In this document: one piece after another, positions 2,324 through 51,854 of the stretch
Layout: every line of letters starts with the position of its first letter
Position numbering within the stretch: position 1 is the stretch's first letter
Source: Candidatus Zixiibacteriota bacterium
GTDB taxonomy: Bacteria; Zixibacteria; MSB-5A5; DSPP01
Assembly (NCBI GenBank): GCA_022614805.1
Contig: JAKEHY010000025.1
Span: 5,098-69,097, forward strand
Length of the DNA stretch: 64,000 nucleotides
Reading direction: 5' to 3'
The notes under the pieces: model-generated
What the model was told of the DNA's origin: nothing
The model's database searches: none
The model's input: the letters and a program-made list of their open reading frames with translations, nothing else
Translations under genes and position numbers: made by a program

Positions 2324-2432
2324 CCGACACTGAAGTGTCGGCTACCAAGAAGGCATTGGAAAATAAGCTGCAAGGTTAATGGTAGCCTCGACTTCAGTCG
2401 AGGGTTTTTTCCGAGGCTAAAGCCTCGGCTGC
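2324..2432. repeat. Three GTAG-hairpin (REP-like) repeats
   Basis: Three REP units lie in the gap between the divergent genes. One is on the minus strand at 2324-2345 (hairpin CCGACACTGAAGTGTCGG followed by CTAC). One is on the plus strand at 2382-2403 (GTAG then CCTCGACTTCAGTCGAGG). One is on the minus strand at 2411-2432 (CCGAGGCTAAAGCCTCGG then CTGC, so GTAG is changed to GCAG). The last two face each other, like the paired REPs of BIME elements. Each has a different stem but the same length, loop and foot. Confidence 0.85.
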
Positions 2433-3535: not shown

Positions 3536-3574
3536 GTAGCCGACACTTTCCGGTAGCCGACACTTTAGTGTCGG
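3536..3574 (+). repeat. Half REP plus full REP upstream of the RAYT gene
   Basis: A truncated unit (GTAGCCGACACTTTCC, from 3536) is followed 17 bases later by a complete unit at 3553-3574 (GTAG then CCGACACTTTAGTGTCGG). It lies 39 bases upstream of the transposase start codon. The half unit keeps the GTAG foot and the 5' arm and lacks the 3' arm. Confidence 0.85.
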
Positions 3575-3612
3575 GGATTGAATGAAAACTCCGCCTCTGC
3601 TATATTCCGTAG

Positions 3613-4065
3613 GTGGGCAACTTTTCCCATGTGATATTGGACAATCAAATCTATTTTATCACCACAACTACAAGAGAGCGGGACAAGGTCTTTACCTCGG
3701 ATGAAAATTCCCGGGTCATGCTGAAAATTTTTGAAGAAATCCGGGAATCTGGGGCGGCAAAAATCTCTGCCTTCGTCATCATGCCCGACCACCTCCACTT
3801 GGTAGTAAAGCCGGAAAAGAAGTCGCTGGACAAAATTATGCAGAAAATCAAAGGCAAATCCTCACGCCTGATTAACCAGCTGCGCAATAGGAATGGCGGA
3901 CTCTGGCAAAGGGAATACTTTGAACGGGCCATACGGGACGAAAAGGATTTGGAAGAAAAATATCAATACATTGTATACAATCCTGTCAAAGAAGGCCTGG
4001 CGGAAAGGCCGGAAGAATATCCTTATTCCTCAGCGGCATTGAAAGAAATGGTGGATGAGCCGTAG
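3613..4065 (+). CDS. REP-associated tyrosine transposase (RAYT, Y1 HUH family)
   Basis: The 150-residue product belongs to the IS200-like Y1 transposases that act on REP hairpins. It shows the metal-binding HUH motif MPDHLHLVV (His60 and His62), the WQREYFERAIRDE segment, and the RAYT signature YIVYNPVKEGLA near residues 119-130, with the nucleophile among Tyr117-Tyr122. These enzymes cut single-stranded DNA next to a GTAG tetranucleotide at the foot of a hairpin, and both flanks of this gene carry exactly such structures. The start is a GTG at 3613; the next Met is too far inside the fold. Length is normal for a compact RAYT. It is probably intact and may be active; it is the only recognisable intact transposase gene in the window. 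Confidence 0.9.
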   Translation: MGNFSHVILDNQIYFITTTTRERDKVFTSDENSRVMLKIFEEIRESGAAKISAFVIMPDHLHLVVKPEKKSLDKIMQKIKGKSSRLINQLRNRNGGLWQREYFERAIRDEKDLEEKYQYIVYNPVKEGLAERPEEYPYSSAALKEMVDEP

Positions 4066-4082
4066 AAGAATAAAAAACCTCC

Positions 4083-4212
4083 GTAGCCGACACTCGTAGC
4101 TGACACTCGTAGCTGACATTCGTAGCTGACATTCGTAGCCGACACTCGTAGCTGACACTCGTAGCCGACACTTTAGTGTCGGAGAAAAACCCTCGACTAA
4201 AGTCGAGGCTAC
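4083..4212 (+). repeat. Tandem array of half REPs ending in a full REP, then an inverted REP
   Basis: Starting 18 bases after the RAYT stop codon, the 13-base unit GTAGC(C/T)GACA(C/T)TC occurs six times in exact tandem (starts at 4083, 4096, 4109, 4122, 4135, 4148). The seventh start, at 4161, continues into a complete unit (GTAG then CCGACACTTTAGTGTCGG, to 4182). A minus-oriented unit with a different stem (CCTCGACTAAAGTCGAGG then CTAC) follows at 4191-4212. The half units contain the foot and 5' arm only. Confidence 0.9.
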
Positions 4213-4545: not shown

Positions 4546-4625
4546 CCTCGACTGAAGTCGAGGCTACCATTGAATATTATCCATTCCCCACCGCCCCACA
4601 TTGGTAGCCGACACTTTAGTGTCGG
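4546..4625. repeat. REP pair with different stems
   Basis: A minus-strand unit is at 4546-4567 (CCTCGACTGAAGTCGAGG then CTAC) and a plus-strand unit at 4604-4625 (GTAG then CCGACACTTTAGTGTCGG). They sit just downstream of the stop codon of the sugar-dehydrogenase-like gene. Confidence 0.85.
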
Positions 4626-4659: not shown

Positions 4660-6117
4660 CTAACAGGGAAACGGGCTGCCCGAAAAAGTGAAATTCACCA
4701 GAAGCACCACGTCCGCGGCGCTCGGGGCGCCGCTGCAGTCCAAATCGCAGGCGGCCGCCCCCGCCGGCGGCGGGATGGACGAAAAGACGCAGGCCACAAG
4801 CGTGACGATGTCCGCCCCGCTCATTTTGCCGTCCAGATTCAAATCCCCTTTCAAAAAGGCAATCCGCCGGAACTGGCCGCTCGTGGGGGCGAAGTTCACG
4901 AACTGCAAAAGGTAGTACAAAGCCCCGTCCGGCCCGACTTGAAAATCGGAACCGGAAACGAAACCGGCGGCCCAGTCGGCGGCGTTCGGCTGTCCCGGCA
5001 CCGGCGGCGGAGTTATCCAAGTGGAGCCGGATTTTTTTATCCGCCGCATAAATCCCTGGTAGTAGTCAATGAAAAAATAATCGCCGTCGTATTCGGCCGG
5101 AAAGTTGTAAAAATTCGTCGCGGGAATCGGACGATACAGCCCGGCGGAAATTATCGAGGCGGTGAATCCGGAGCGGTCGTAGTAGGCGATGGGGGGGATG
5201 AAACTGCCGTTGCCGCTTCCCCCCGGCTCCGTGCAGCCCCCCACCACCTGTGTGTCCGGCCCTTCCCGGAACGGCCAGCCGAAGTTTTCCCCGCCCCGAC
5301 ATTCATCCGCCTCCTCGTAATTGCTCTGTCCCACGTCGGCGATGTACAAATTCCCCGTTTGCGGGTCGATGTTGAAGCGGAACGGATTCCGCAGCCCGTA
5401 GGCCCAGGCGAGCCGGGCGTTGTCCGAACCGGGAAAAGGATTATCGGCGGGCGTGATGGACGATTTGGATGCCGGTCCGGAACCGGCCCCCGGCAGGCTG
5501 TCGACGGAGATTCGCAAAATCACTCCCTTGAACGAGCCCGAATCCTGCGCGCGGCAAAAATCGGCGTCCTCCCCCAGCGAGGGGTAGAGCCGGCCGTCCG
5601 GGCCGAAGCGCAAGGTTCCCCCGTTGTGGTTGCCGGCGGCGTCCGGAATGTCGGTGATGATGTCGTAGCGGCTGCCGAGTGACAGGTTATGGCTGGCCGG
5701 GTCGTTCAAATCTCCGCTGGCCGTGAACATCGAAAGATAAATGGTGGAACCCGGCGTGCGGTCGAAATAAACGTATACGTATGGCCGCGTCGGCCAGTCC
5801 GGGTCGATGGCGATTCCCAAAAGTCCCTGTTCGTTCCCGGCCGTCTGCACGTCGGCGATGGTCGTAATCGGGTCGGTCGTTGAAATAGCGCCGTTTACAA
5901 TCATCCGGATTCTCCGGGTCTTCTGCTCGGTGAACAAAATCCGACCATCGGGTAAAAAAGCAAAAGCGGCGGGCTGGGAAAGTCCCCCGACTATAAGCTC
6001 GTCAACGAATCCGGTCGGCACGGTGGCGGCCAAGGCGGAATTTTGAAAGGGAAAAACAAAAACGGCCGCCAAAAGCGAAGCGGCGAATCCGCCGAAGAAA
6101 ACCAAAGCTTTCTTCAC
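4660..6117 (-). CDS. Exported glucose/sorbosone dehydrogenase-like beta-propeller with dockerin-like tail
   Basis: The 485-residue product is an exported six-bladed propeller of the soluble PQQ-type glucose/sorbosone dehydrogenase family. Family motifs are visible: [21 protein letters not shown] near the N-terminus, [46 protein letters not shown] and NFGWPFREG. Such enzymes oxidise sugars with PQQ in the periplasm, but the substrate here is not known. I prefer the GTG at 6117 ([11 protein letters not shown]) since it begins a signal peptide and the longer frame reads a REP. The last 65 residues are a dockerin-like module with four cysteines and the terminal PFPC. It lies downstream of the paralog operon but is separated from it by a REP and has its own likely promoter. 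Confidence 0.85.
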
Positions 6118-6123
6118 AACGAT

Positions 6124-6153
6124 ATTATACGGTAAAGAGAGGAAATCCGTTAA
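6124..6153 (-). promoter_or_regulatory. Likely sigma-70 promoter, leaderless or near-leaderless
   Basis: On the minus strand there is a perfect -10 box TATAAT (6124-6129), with TTAACG 18 bases upstream (6148-6153). The -10 box ends only six bases before the preferred GTG start, so the transcript would be almost leaderless, and no ribosome binding site is visible. Inference from sequence only. Confidence 0.4.
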
Positions 6154-6172
6154 AAAGAAAATCCTTTCCCCC

Positions 6173-6194
6173 GTAGCCGGCACTTCAGTGCCGG
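6173..6194 (+). repeat. REP unit with GGCAC stem
   Basis: GTAG followed by CCGGCACTTCAGTGCCGG. Compared with the common CCGACAC stem, one base pair has changed on both arms, so pairing is kept. Confidence 0.85.
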
Positions 6195-6210
6195 AACAAA
6201 TCAATTCGGC

Positions 6211-6978
6211 TTAACACGGAAACGGCTCCTGCAAAAAGACGGCGTTCACTTCCGTAACCACGTCCGCGCCCGAGGCCTGCCCATCGCAGTTCACGTCGCA
6301 GGAAACACCCCCCGGCGGCGGTTGGCTTTGGAACACGCAGTTTAACAGGGTCACGATGTCCGCCGCGCTCATCCTCAAATCAAAATTGAAATCCCCTTTC
6401 GGATAGGCGGTGATGACGCTCTTCACAAAGTTGACCGGCACATCTTCCGCGATACCGGCCAGCCAGCTGGAAAAATAACCACCCCTATGGTTCAGTACCA
6501 CGGCCGAATCCAGCTCAAGGGTTCCCGCACCGCCTCGAACCGTGTCAAATTTGATTTCCCAGACCGCCTTGCGGGTGGCGTTGGGCGGTTCCACCGTGGA
6601 AAGGTCGCCGGGGCTGTACCCAGCCGCCACAAGGAAAGTATCCGGACTTGCACCGTTATAGCCGCCAAAATTGCCCACCCCGAAATCGTTCAGAGTCGGG
6701 GTCAAAGTCGTTATCACGGACGAAAAAGTCAGGAGGCCCGAAGCAGTCCTCGACAAAAGACCGTAGGTCCCGCCGGAGGTGGAAAGTTCCTTTAGGGCCA
6801 AAGTCATCCAGGCCAACGAATCTTTGTTGGTGATATAAACCTTGACGGTTGTATAGGGTTGGCCGGTCCCCAGCTGAACGGTTTTGGATTCCAGAATTAT
6901 CGAATCCCGCGGGTCGGGCTGCGCCCATACCACCGAAGCGGCAAGCAAAAAAATAAGAGCAAACATTACGCTTTTCAT
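6211..6978 (-). CDS. Exported paralog with one N-terminal beta-sandwich domain and a dockerin-like tail
   Basis: The 255-residue product starts at ATG 6978 behind a strong AAAGGAGG site; the signal peptide is MKSVMFALIFLLAASVVWAQ. Residues 21-190 form the family domain that begins DPRDSIILESKTV, continues VKVYITNKDSL, and ends KAVWEIKFDTV...GTLELDSAV...VNFVKSVIT. This layout of strands resembles cohesin or other CBM-like sandwiches, but I cannot prove that. The last 60 residues are the dockerin-like module with two calcium loops (DFNFDLRMSAAD, DVNCDGQASGAD), four cysteines and terminal PFPC. It is the last of four tightly spaced paralogs (gaps of 11-13 bases), so it is probably co-transcribed with them. 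Function unknown. Confidence 0.85.
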   Translation of the reverse strand: MKSVMFALIFLLAASVVWAQPDPRDSIILESKTVQLGTGQPYTTVKVYITNKDSLAWMTLALKELSTSGGTYGLLSRTASGLLTFSSVITTLTPTLNDFGVGNFGGYNGASPDTFLVAAGYSPGDLSTVEPPNATRKAVWEIKFDTVRGGAGTLELDSAVVLNHRGGYFSSWLAGIAEDVPVNFVKSVITAYPKGDFNFDLRMSAADIVTLLNCVFQSQPPPGGVSCDVNCDGQASGADVVTEVNAVFLQEPFPC

Positions 6979-6989
6979 ATGACCTCCTT

Positions 6990-8264
6990 TCAGCACGGAA
7001 ACGGCTCCTGGTTGAACACGGCTTGCACTTCCAAGACCACGTCCGCGCCGGAGGCTTGCCCGTCGCAGTTCACATCGCACGAAGCCCCTCCCGGCGGCGG
7101 TTGGCTTTGGAACACGCAGTTTAACAGGGTCACGATGTCCGCCGCGCTCATCCTCAAATCCTGATTGAAATCCCCCTTCGGGTAGGTGACGGTGACAACG
7201 CTTTTCAGAAAATGGGCCGCCACATCCACCGCATGTGTGGTGGTTAACAGAGCAGGTCCAACTGGAAAAGCGGGATGATGCACCGTATCCAATTCGAACG
7301 TTCCTACGTTGGTCAAAACCGTGTCAAACTTTATTTCCCAGACTGCCTTGCGGGTGGCGTTGGGCGGCTCGTTGGTGGCTGGGTCGACCCCGTCTCCCCC
7401 GGCGAAGACAAAGAAAGTGTCCGGACTGCTGTTGTTATACCGGAACTGGGCCGCCGAGCCGTAGATGAAGTATGTCAAGGGAGTTATGACCGAGCCAAAA
7501 GTCAGATTGCCCGCAACGTTTCTTGGCAAAATGCCATACGCCCCGCCGGAGGTCGATTTTTCCAAAAGCGACAGACCAAGAAAAGACAGCGAATCTTTGT
7601 TGGTGATGTAAACCTTGACGGTCGTATAGGGATGGCCTGTCCCCGGCTGAACGGTTTTGGATTCCAAAATGACGGAATCCCGCGGGTCGGGAACCAAAAC
7701 CCTTACGACGCTTTTCGCAAAGTTGAACGGCACATCCTGCCCCGCTGTGTTGAGCAACTCCGTGTAATGGCCCACTGTCGTTCTAACCGTGTCCAGTTCA
7801 AAAGTGCCCGCATTGCTTAAAACCGAGTCAAATTTGATTTCCCACATCGTCTTGCGAACGGCATTGGGCGGCTCAATGGTGGAAGGATCGACTCCGTCGG
7901 AAAGGGCTACAGCAGCGAAAGAATCGGGGCTGTCACTATGATACCAAGCCGTAGCCAACCCTGCGCCGTAGCGGATAGTCGATGCCAACGTCGTGATTAC
8001 CCCGCCAAAAGTCCGCGGCCTGCCCAATATGGCGTAAGCACCGCCAGATATGGAAGTTTGCTGCAAAGCCAACATCATACCAGTCAGTGAGTCTTTGTTG
8101 GTGATATAAACCTTCACGTAGAGATAGGCGGAGGTATCCGTCTCCCCCCGGACTCCCGGCGCCACGCTCTTCGATTCCAGAATGATGGAATCCCGCGCGT
8201 CCGGCTGCGCCCATACCACCGAAGCGGCAAGCAAAAAAATAAGAGCAAACATTACGCTTTTCAT
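6990..8264 (-). CDS. Exported paralog with two tandem N-terminal domains and a dockerin-like tail
   Basis: The 424-residue product starts at ATG 8264 behind AAAGGAGG. Its signal peptide is identical to that of the next gene (6211-6978), even at DNA level, which points to recent duplication or gene conversion. It carries two copies of the family domain: the first begins DARDSIILESKSV, the second begins DPRDSVILESKTV at about residue 200. The dockerin-like module follows and is almost identical in protein sequence to that of its neighbour (four cysteines, terminal PFPC). The doubled domain makes this the longest member of the operon. Role unknown; a two-domain scaffold or adhesin is possible. 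Confidence 0.85.
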   Translation of the reverse strand: MKSVMFALIFLLAASVVWAQPDARDSIILESKSVAPGVRGETDTSAYLYVKVYITNKDSLTGMMLALQQTSISGGAYAILGRPRTFGGVITTLASTIRYGAGLATAWYHSDSPDSFAAVALSDGVDPSTIEPPNAVRKTMWEIKFDSVLSNAGTFELDTVRTTVGHYTELLNTAGQDVPFNFAKSVVRVLVPDPRDSVILESKTVQPGTGHPYTTVKVYITNKDSLSFLGLSLLEKSTSGGAYGILPRNVAGNLTFGSVITPLTYFIYGSAAQFRYNNSSPDTFFVFAGGDGVDPATNEPPNATRKAVWEIKFDTVLTNVGTFELDTVHHPAFPVGPALLTTTHAVDVAAHFLKSVVTVTYPKGDFNQDLRMSAADIVTLLNCVFQSQPPPGGASCDVNCDGQASGADVVLEVQAVFNQEPFPC

Positions 8265-14288: not shown

Positions 14289-14368
14289 GTAGGGGTTTGA
14301 TTAATCAAACCCCTCCGGGCGAATCTTGTGTTCGCCCCCAAAGGGCAGACACACCGGTCTGCCCCTAC
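14289..14368. repeat. Three GTAGGGG-type palindromes
   Basis: 14289-14316 is the GTAGGGGTTTGATTA palindrome with a CCTCC end. 14317-14338 is GGGCGAATC/TTGTG/TTCGCCC. 14343-14368 is GGGCAGAC...GTCTGCCCCTAC. No gene lies in this gap. Confidence 0.75.
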
Positions 14369-15426: not shown

Positions 15427-15507
15427 CCGACGCTGAAGCGTCGGCTACCAATCCGGGCCAGACCCAAAATGGTAGCCGCAATATGGTAGCCGCGACTTCA
15501 GTCGCGG
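15427..15507. repeat. REP cluster with a half unit
   Basis: Minus-strand unit at 15427-15448 (CCGACGCTGAAGCGTCGG then CTAC). A half unit (GTAGCCGC) starts at 15472, followed 14 bases later by a full unit at 15486-15507 (GTAG then CCGCGACTTCAGTCGCGG). This is another case where a 5' half copy precedes a full REP. Confidence 0.8.
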
Positions 15508-22780: not shown

Positions 22781-22804
22781 TTTGCGGGTTTTTCCATTTT
22801 ATTC

Positions 22805-22892
22805 GTAGCCTCTTATTCGTAGCCTCGACTTCACTTGTCCCGAGCGGAGTCGAGGGAGTCGAGGAATTTTCCGACACTAAAGTGTCGGCTAC
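22805..22892. repeat. REP cluster: half unit, split unit and inverted unit
   Basis: A half unit (GTAGCCTC) at 22805 is followed 14 bases later by a unit at 22819-22864 whose loop holds the insertion CTTGTCCCGAGC...GTCGAGGGA. An intact minus-strand unit is at 22871-22892 (CCGACACTAAAGTGTCGG then CTAC). Confidence 0.8.
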
Positions 22893-32713: not shown

Positions 32714-32852
32714 CTTTTCCCTCCCCTTAAGGGGAGGGATTAAGGGTGGGGTCGCCTTTCAATCATCAATCGTCAATCATTCAGTCTTCAATCCCCGTCT
32801 TTTTTGTCCCCCTTGGCAAGGGGGACGAGGCCCGAAGGGCCGGAGGGGGTGT
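32714..32852. repeat. C-rich palindromes
   Basis: CCCTCCCCTTAAGGGGAGGG (about 32718-32737) with trailing ATTAAGGGTGGGGTC, then GTCCCCCTTGGCAAGGGGGAC at 32808-32828 with GAGGCCCGAAGGGCCGGAG after it. The remaining bases up to 33006 hold no recognisable gene. Confidence 0.75.
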
Positions 32853-42403: not shown

Positions 42404-43915
42404 TCAGCAGGGAAAAGGCGCCTCGTTGAACGTCGCTGCAATCAGCGATACAATATCTGCGCCGGAGAGGTTCCCGGTGCAGTTTACGTCCGCGTAGCAC
42501 AGGTTGCAGTCCCCGCCAATCGTTCCGGTTCCATTCTCGTTGAACGTGCAATTTATCAGCAATACAATATCGGCGCCGCTCAAAGTCCCCGAGCCGTTCA
42601 TATCCCCCTTCACCGCCGCACAAAGGCCATAAACAAAAGCCGAACCGGCCTTGGCCGCTCCGCCCGGGTTGGTGGAAGGAGCGCCAATAATGAGGTCAGC
42701 TTTGCCGTCCCCGTTGACGTCTCCGGCCGAGGCCACGGAGAAACCTAAACTGTCGCCGACGGCGGCGCCGTTTATCTGACCGAGCAGGGAGCCATCGGCA
42801 CCGGAATGGACGTAGGCGGAGCCGGCGCCGCTAAGCCCGCCTGCGCCGGCGCTAGGAGCGCCGATGATGAAGTCGGCCTTGCCATCCCCGTTGACATCCC
42901 CGGCGGAAGCGACGGAGAAGCCCAGATAGTCACCGGCAGCGACGCCGTTTTTCAGGTAGAGCAGGGAGCCATCGGCGCCGGAATAGACGTAGGCGGTGCC
43001 GGCGTCGCTAAGCAAGCCCACGTCCATAAAAGGAGCGCCGATGATGAAGTCCGCCTTGCCATCCCCGTTGACGTCTCCGGCGGAGGCGGCGGAGAAGCCC
43101 AGAAGGTCTCCGGCGGCGGCGCCGTGTTTCTGGTAGAGTAGGGAACCGTCGGCGCCGGAATAGACGTAGGCGGTGCCGGCGTCGTCTTGCCGCAAAGGGT
43201 CGTTCCTAGGAGTTCCGATGATGAAATCAGCTTTACCATCCCCGTTGTCGTCCCCGGCGGAGGCCACGGAGAAACCTAAGCTGTCGCCGATGGTGCCCCC
43301 GTTTTTCTCATATAGCAGGGAGCCATCGGCGCCGGAATAGACGTAGGCGGAGCCGGCGCCGCTAAACCCGGCGGTGGGGTCGGCGCCAGGAGCACCGATG
43401 ATAAAATCAGCCCTGCCATCCCCGTTGACGTCTCCGGCGGAGGCGACGGAGAAGCCCAGAAGGTCTTCAACGGCGCCGCCTTTCTGGTAGAGCGGAAGGA
43501 CACCGCCGCCTGAATAAACAAAGGCGGAGCCGTTGACTTGGCCGGAGAACGGGGCACCGACGATGTAATCGTCGTTGCCATCGCCGTTGACGTCTCCAGC
43601 CCCGGCGACAGACCAGCCCAGAAGGAATAAGTTGCCGTCGCCCTTTCTCGTATGGAGCACAGCTCCGCTGGCGCCGGAATAAACGACGGCCAAACCTGTG
43701 TTCAACTCGCCCTCCAGTTCGAAAGCAGGAAGACCGATGATGAAGTCGGCTTTGCCATCGCCGTTCACGTCCCCGGCCGAAGCCACCGACCAGCCCAGAA
43801 AGTCTTGGGCTGCGGCGCCGTCTTTCTGGTAATGAAGATTAAATTGACCGAAAGTAACTGCCGGCAAAATCAAAACTAAAAGAAATACCGCCAGAACTCC
43901 TGCCCGAATTCTCAT
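42404..43915 (-). CDS. Exported FG-GAP (integrin-alpha-like) propeller with dockerin-like tail
   Basis: The 503-residue product has a signal peptide (MRIRAGVLAVFLLVLILPAVTFG) and seven FG-GAP repeats, each with LGFSVASAGDVNGDGKADFIIGAP, enough for a full seven-bladed calcium-binding propeller. The last 75 residues are the dockerin-like module (DMNGSGTLSGADI, DVNCTGNLSGADI) with two extra cysteines (DCNLC) and the terminal PFPC. GGGAGG precedes the ATG. The repeats are so alike at DNA level that the copy number could change by recombination. Likely a surface or secreted binding protein. Confidence 0.85.
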   Translation of the reverse strand: MRIRAGVLAVFLLVLILPAVTFGQFNLHYQKDGAAAQDFLGWSVASAGDVNGDGKADFIIGLPAFELEGELNTGLAVVYSGASGAVLHTRKGDGNLFLLGWSVAGAGDVNGDGNDDYIVGAPFSGQVNGSAFVYSGGGVLPLYQKGGAVEDLLGFSVASAGDVNGDGRADFIIGAPGADPTAGFSGAGSAYVYSGADGSLLYEKNGGTIGDSLGFSVASAGDDNGDGKADFIIGTPRNDPLRQDDAGTAYVYSGADGSLLYQKHGAAAGDLLGFSAASAGDVNGDGKADFIIGAPFMDVGLLSDAGTAYVYSGADGSLLYLKNGVAAGDYLGFSVASAGDVNGDGKADFIIGAPSAGAGGLSGAGSAYVHSGADGSLLGQINGAAVGDSLGFSVASAGDVNGDGKADLIIGAPSTNPGGAAKAGSAFVYGLCAAVKGDMNGSGTLSGADIVLLINCTFNENGTGTIGGDCNLCYADVNCTGNLSGADIVSLIAATFNEAPFPC

Positions 43916-51047: not shown

Positions 51048-51854
51048 TTTCCTCCGCGCCCGGACTATGCGGGCGACAATCCATTATAGCCAATGACCGG
51101 GAAAAAGCAAGGAAATTCTGCAAAAAATACTACAATATCTTGTGGTAGATAAGATGTTGGTAACGATTTTTTGGTATGGTTTTTGCTTATGTGAAAAATA
51201 ACGGGCATTGGCCAACTTGGATTAGGCGATTTGGCCAATGGCCGGGTATAACCTATGCGGGTGGGGGGTCTGGGGGGGTTCGGTGGGCGAGGTCACGCTA
51301 GTCAACGAGGCCCGTTGTTACCTCACCCCTCAAGGGTTTCCTGCCCCACCTTTTCCTCGGCTACCCCTCGATTTCCCTTCCTCGACAAGCTTCGGAACTC
51401 CTCGGCTCCGCTCGGAGCAAGCAAGTAGGAGCAAGGCTTAAGGGAAAATTAAGCGTGGGGTTGGGGGGAAGTCAAGGGAGGAAGAACGAACCTAACCCCT
51501 GGCCCCTTCCCGACACGGGAAGGGGAAGGGCGAACGCCGTTCGCCCCTACGTTTTTGGTCTTTTGGTTTTTTGTTTTCGTAGGGGCGAGGCGCCCTCGCC
51601 CGGTGGGGTTTGTGGCGCAGGTTAGGTTTTTCTTAACCTGCGCACCCCGCAGGATACGTCCCGCCGAGGGCGGGGCTTTATCCCGCGCCACATTTACTTT
51701 CACGAAAATTTTAAAGGGGACACCTGTTTCCTCATCAGCTTCCGTCCTTGAGGGTCGGGAAAATCCGGAAAGGGCATAGTGTCCCCGTTTTTCACATCGA
51801 ACGGGTAAGAGCGTATTTCAATCGTCAATCATCAATCCCTCAATCGTCAATCAT
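51048..51854. other. Long non-coding region with palindromes
   Basis: No gene is recognisable in about 800 bases. Seen features: an inverted repeat GGCATTGGCCAA...TTGGCCAATGGCC (about 51207-51244), CCTAACCCCTGGCCCCTTCC with a GGGAAGGGG arm (51490-51530), GGGCGAACGCCGTTCGCCCC (51528-51547), and GTAGGGGCGAGGCGCCCTCGCC (51579-51600). It separates the accessory block from the fibre-like protein genes. Confidence 0.6.

Follow-up and report, generated by a model that had tools for sequence, protein, structure and literature searches.

A tandem array of half REPs beside a RAYT gene of Candidatus Zixiibacteriota, and its probable origin by replication slippage

Introduction

The way in which REPs multiply has not been settled. 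A locus in Candidatus Zixiibacteriota raises the question in a simple form: a RAYT (REP-associated tyrosine transposase) gene is followed by a row of half REPs, each made of the GTAG foot and the 5' arm, leading into one complete REP. Such an array, which is 5'-polar and advances in whole-arm steps, is a simple substrate on which hairpin slippage and RAYT chemistry can be set against each other. Did the transposase make the half copies, or did they arise in place?

Materials and Methods

The DNA analysed (the window) is a stretch of 64,000 nt, positions 5098-69097 of contig JAKEHY010000025.1 (C25), from an assembly of 2.56 Mb in 38 contigs that is 93% complete. REP data for this genome came from searches with sequence patterns and from sampled stretches. 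A foreign origin of the contig was considered and rejected, as its 4-mer composition and G+C match those of the rest of the genome.

Polarity was assessed on 518 distinct REPs, taken from the own-genome sample, 109 loci from relatives and 80 loci around RAYTs in named genomes. A 5'-half duplication was scored when the first ten bases of a REP recurred upstream within less than one REP length, and a mirror test served for the 3' side. The null was obtained by swapping flanks between REPs 200 times. Looser thresholds (10-mer, 2 mismatches) added matches to partner REPs on the 3' side and were uninformative.

Results and Discussion

The RAYT gene and its REPs

The features at and around the gene are:

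2324-2345, minus strand: full REP GTAGCCGACACTTCAGTGTCGG
2382-2403, plus strand: full REP GTAGCCTCGACTTCAGTCGAGG
3553-3574, plus strand: full REP GTAGCCGACACTTTAGTGTCGG, in the upstream flank of the RAYT gene
3613-4065, plus strand: RAYT gene, 150 aa, GTG start, with HLH (H60, H62) and Y119 with NPVKEG
4161-4182, plus strand: full REP closing the half-REP array
4191-4212, minus strand: full REP GTAGCCTCGACTTTAGTCGAGG, a REPIN-type inverted pair with 4161-4182, feet outward, with a different stem
4546-4567, minus strand: full REP GTAGCCTCGACTTCAGTCGAGG
4604-4625, plus strand: full REP GTAGCCGACACTTTAGTGTCGG

The encoded protein matches the NCBIfam model REP_Tyr_transpos (NF047646) with 151.3 bits against a cut-off of 80 (1.6e-44), and Pfam Y1_Tnp at 1.8e-18. 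Residues H60, H62, Y119, N123 and P124 are invariant in the RAYT alignment, and the best solved relative is the E. coli TnpA_REP (4er8), whose Tyr 115 aligns with Y119. RAYTs are recognised by an HxH motif and a nucleophilic Tyr followed by NP(L/V)(R/K)xG (PMC2817692), which here reads NPVKEG. The nearest named relatives, at 47% identity, are in two Zixibacteria genomes; PMC6006769 makes no mention by name of a Zixibacteria subgroup. Like IS200/IS605 insertion sequences, the locus combines an HUH/Y1 fold with a hairpin that has a 5' guide tetranucleotide, but the score of the protein with the IS200/IS605 model NF033573 (54.3 bits) lies just under the cut-off of 55, whereas it is far above that of REP_Tyr_transpos.

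Inverted GTAG REPs flank the gene, among them the plus-strand copy at 3553 and the minus-strand copy at 4191-4212. A complete Y1/HUH RAYT with GTAG hairpins on both sides, as reported in the preliminary description, is thus borne out (REPs at 3553, 4161 and 4191). Some RAYT homologue is present in 55 of the 58 genomes searched (this genome and relatives), and many other RAYTs in this set show a similar REP arrangement. On the strength of the family match, the GTAG hairpins on either side in both orientations and the likeness to many other RAYTs, the gene at 3613-4065 and its cognate REPs are, by their sequence features, an ordinary REPtron. The likeness to known REPtrons (TnpA_REP; PMC2817692, PMC3733652, PMC8266576) extends to the HUH/Y1 protein, the NPVKxG motif and inverted GTAG hairpins that recur across the genome; the difference is that one flanking REP here bears tandem foot-plus-5'-arm halves.

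The full REP folds as single-stranded DNA (z = -6.6), while the half unit does not. Within the window, GTAGCYGACAYT has 23 matches with at most one mismatch, compared with 0.43 in shuffled sequences. A genome-wide count, proposed with the preliminary description, gave a modest number of full REPs of this RAYT's family, 42, against 2 for a reversed control pattern. Nineteen of them lie on the 69-kb contig C25 (window 2324-42297), where about one would be expected for a genome of 2.56 Mb; seven of these are within 2 kb of the RAYT gene, leaving 12 without them. The family is locally dense on this contig and may therefore have spread locally. Another REP family of this genome, and one from a genome of the same order assembled as a single contig, are mainly clustered at the RAYT, with the rest scattered.

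Closely spaced inverted REP pairs with feet outward have different stems in 60 of 67 cases in the window and the sampled loci, and in all 28 in the own genome (e.g. 4161-4212). They are similar in this respect to the Y/Z pairs of E. coli; tested by shuffling, the heterotypic pairing in the own genome falls short of significance (p 0.23). Another element, GTAGGGGTTTGATTAATCAAACCCCTAC, is fully symmetric, with GTAG on each strand; it occurs at about 37 places in the genome and at 14289, 16820, 19350, 20525, 21157 and 47744 of the window.

The half-REP array

Half copies were found at four places in the window, all on the plus strand:

3536-3552, plus strand: 5'-side half REP (GTAGCCGACACT) plus linker, duplicated perfectly over 17 bases in the following unit (full REP 3553)
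4083-4160, plus strand: six half REPs of 13 bases each (foot, 5' arm and C) in tandem, CGTAGCYGACAYT, arranged A B D D A B
15465-15507, plus strand: partial half (GTAGCCG, period 14), then full REP 15486-15507
22799-22864, plus strand: perfect 14-base duplication with GTAGCCTC, ahead of an imperfect longer hairpin (22819-22855)

The large array begins 18 bases past the RAYT stop codon and leads straight into a hairpin. Its units start at 4083, 4096, 4109, 4122, 4135 and 4148, and the array enters the full REP at 4161-4182 in unchanged register; Tandem Repeats Finder (TRF) reports 4082-4172 with period 13 and 7.0 copies. The six tandem units had been described as exact. This holds for the period, which is exactly 13, but the units are not identical: there are three variants, A (GTAGCCGACACT), B (GTAGCTGACACT) and D (GTAGCTGACATT), which differ by C/T only, B being A with one C>T and D being A with two. 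The six units run A B D D A B, and the copy in the full REP that follows them is of type A. All four genome-wide matches to the B and D variants are in the array, and the junction between the two D units (CATTCGTAG) has no CT. Shuffled versions of the 100-base array fold as well as the array itself.

Elsewhere such arrays are very scarce. In this genome the tandem pattern of a half followed by another half or by a full REP is confined to the RAYT gene (seven overlapping matches, control 0), and half units are nearly absent outside its contig. A four-foot, period-13 array was absent from the other genomes among the 132 of the phylum that were searched; one of them (G051) gave a single chance-like match to the pattern, without repeated units. 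The half-REP array is the odd part of the locus, a rare variant beside an ordinary RAYT and its REPs. Tandem clusters of whole REPs and REPINs are already known (PMC3116915, PMC3733652, PMC2817692). These clusters and BIMEs resemble the array in being local tandem amplifications that involve REPs, some of them beside RAYT genes, but they repeat whole REPs or REPINs with their flanks, whereas the 13-base unit repeated here comprises no more than the foot and 5' arm; the array is not a row of whole REP pairs and spacers, as a BIME or tandem REPIN cluster would be. Half-REP arrays were not mentioned in the literature searched for half, partial or truncated REPs, which is weak evidence of novelty because that coverage is incomplete.

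The single half unit ahead of the full REP on the 5' side of the RAYT gene (3536/3553) was confirmed as a perfect 17-base duplication, and the half copies noted earlier at 15472 and 22805 are also present, both with period 14. The statement that halves always lie 5' of a full copy does not hold: a 9-base duplicate of the 3' arm follows the hairpin at 22819-22855 (22856-22864) and is also found in a sister copy of the element (L028). This composite longer hairpin, GTAGCCTCGACTTCACTTGTCCCGAGCG(G/A)AGTCGAGG with its 9-base 3'-arm duplicate, occurs at least twice in the genome. Decay of full REPs was rejected as a source of the halves, since the copies are spaced by less than the length of a full REP and are exactly periodic.

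An independent array in a Chlamydiae MAG

A second array was found in a Chlamydiae MAG (JABDEO010000096.1; locus L072, 4538-4595), where GTAGCGTAGACT occurs three times in exact tandem and is followed by the full REP GTAGCGTAGACTTTAGTCTGCG. It lies about 3 kb from a RAYT gene and was detected by a search around RAYTs; a genome-wide count, which is free of such bias, gave about 134 foot-plus-arm copies with only this one tandem array. The two arrays are alike in having half units in exact tandem followed by a full REP, in lying near a RAYT and in being the only one in their genome, and differ in phylum, stem and period (12 instead of 13). The independent occurrence of arrays in two distant phyla suggests that the process can recur.

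Two other features of this locus may be mentioned. Four copies of a 92-base REP composite stand immediately before the RAYT gene (L072 6976-7343), and copies near L072 4640-4670 carry a piece, GAAGCGTACCCTTACAGTAG, that is similar to the gene's 3' end. Judging from this resemblance, the Chlamydiae REP element looks as if it were derived from the end of the RAYT gene.

Polarity and end-points of the duplications

Among the 518 REPs there were seven 5'-half duplications, compared with a null mean of 0.43 (maximum 3 in 200), and two 3'-half duplications, barely above the null of 0.53. The preference for the 5' side that had been proposed is retained in this weaker form: the excess is real, though the numbers are small and concentrated in the window, which holds four of the seven cases (the others are in the Chlamydiae MAG, a Thiocystis MAG and a Zixibacterium). 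The duplications do not all end at the same point. Both large arrays stop at the start of the loop, the unit at 3553 two bases into the loop, and those at 15472 and 22805 in mid-arm. Ends other than CT are CACTTT (3553), GCCG (15486) and CCTC (22805), and periods of 12, 13, 14 and 17 were seen.

Origin of the half REPs

The half REPs are probably local tandem duplications made in place by hairpin-promoted replication slippage. When a strand carrying a REP is copied, the hairpin would halt the growing end once the foot and some or all of the 5' arm had been copied; the halted end could slip back and copy foot and arm again, leaving a half unit ahead of the intact REP. If the duplicated unit, of 13 bases here and of 12 in the Chlamydiae array, includes the entire 5' arm, any of several identical 5' arms could be the partner of the one 3' arm; whole-unit slippage could therefore recur and build an array, while partial-arm duplications would remain at two copies. 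The array would afterwards have evolved as a small minisatellite, by the mutations A>B>D, a duplication of D and a two-unit duplication of A-B. The RAYT would promote this indirectly at most, through exposure or nicking of single-stranded DNA in the vicinity.

Varied end-points (loop, loop+2, mid-arm) and periods are as slippage predicts. Because the T-variant units are absent elsewhere in the genome, the array grew from itself. Its arrangement, A B D D A B A with the full copy included, implies stepwise growth that included a two-unit step. Slippage by itself leaves the 5' bias and the closeness of both arrays to RAYTs unexplained. It is expected on both strands, and the rarity of 3'-half duplications (2 versus 7, both small numbers) therefore counts against it. 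The 5' bias and the proximity to RAYTs could come from exposure or nicking of single-stranded DNA by the RAYT, or from an effect of the replication strand.

The preliminary description had left strand transfer and slippage side by side. A direct role of the transposase would have it cut at CT in the loop (...GACACT^TTAG) and join the 3' end just ahead of a foot, either that of the same REP or that of a sister copy. Each event would add one foot-plus-5'-arm unit, so that half REPs would be by-products of aborted REP transposition. CT is the measured cleavage dinucleotide of the Stenotrophomonas RAYT and the common one in the family, thought to be positioned by the GTAG foot (PMC8266576). In both arrays of at least three halves the units end at CT at the loop, both arrays lie at or near a cognate RAYT (the second having been found by searching around RAYTs), and 5' polarity exceeds 3'. 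Yet most other 5'-half duplications end elsewhere than CT, and the adjacent identical D units stand in tandem without it. Half units have no hairpin, which the RAYTs characterised so far need; these enzymes cut beside the folded REP and not inside it (PMC8266576), and in reported substrates the cut lies on the 5' or the 3' side of the hairpin rather than in the loop. The variable end-points and the variants confined to the array favour slippage, the D-D units without CT speak against strand transfer, and manufacture of the array by the RAYT is on balance doubtful. It is somewhat more doubtful again that the arrays are genuine products of this kind, with the loop cut at CT and the 5' half rejoined before the foot, that record the activity and strand-transfer polarity of the enzyme. 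The wider suggestion that the half copies are a fossil record of how REPs multiply is not borne out, with half units nearly absent off the RAYT's contig and offering no hairpin for recognition by the RAYT. If slippage is the true origin, half-REP arrays should not be taken for traces of transposition.

Repair after hairpin cleavage is improbable as a source. An SbcCD-type enzyme would open the hairpin 5' of the loop, and end joining or a template switch to a sister copy would leave the foot and 5' arm ahead of a full REP. Palindromes are known to be unstable, and the loop-proximal end-points of the two large arrays and of 3553 would fit; however, 8-bp stems are short for such nucleases, and mid-arm end-points are unaccounted for. 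A selected device, such as a decoy that offers the RAYT several sites or a 3' control element of its mRNA, is suggested by the position of the array just past the stop codon and leading into a hairpin, but is highly improbable given its absence from the other genomes of the phylum (132 searched), its unfolded half units and its drifting unit sequence. Short tandem arrays can be mis-assembled, and this is a metagenome-type assembly in 38 contigs. An artefact is nevertheless barely credible, as the units carry distinguishable variants, the array of about 100 bases could fit within a short read, an independent array exists in another phylum and the window is similar in composition to the rest of the genome.

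Other repeats in the window

Apart from REPs, the window carries several other repeats. Secreted-looking proteins at 333-2348, 4660-6204 and 6211-7080 (minus strand) have, in their ORF translations, similar dockerin-like C-terminal repeats (SAADIVTLLNCVF and variants). A 177-base tandem repeat of 4.8 copies (42677-43532) is probably inside the gene of a repeat protein. Two similar 7-base arrays, TCAATCA and TCAATCG, with 4.9 copies each, lie far apart at 32759-32793 and 51818-51852.
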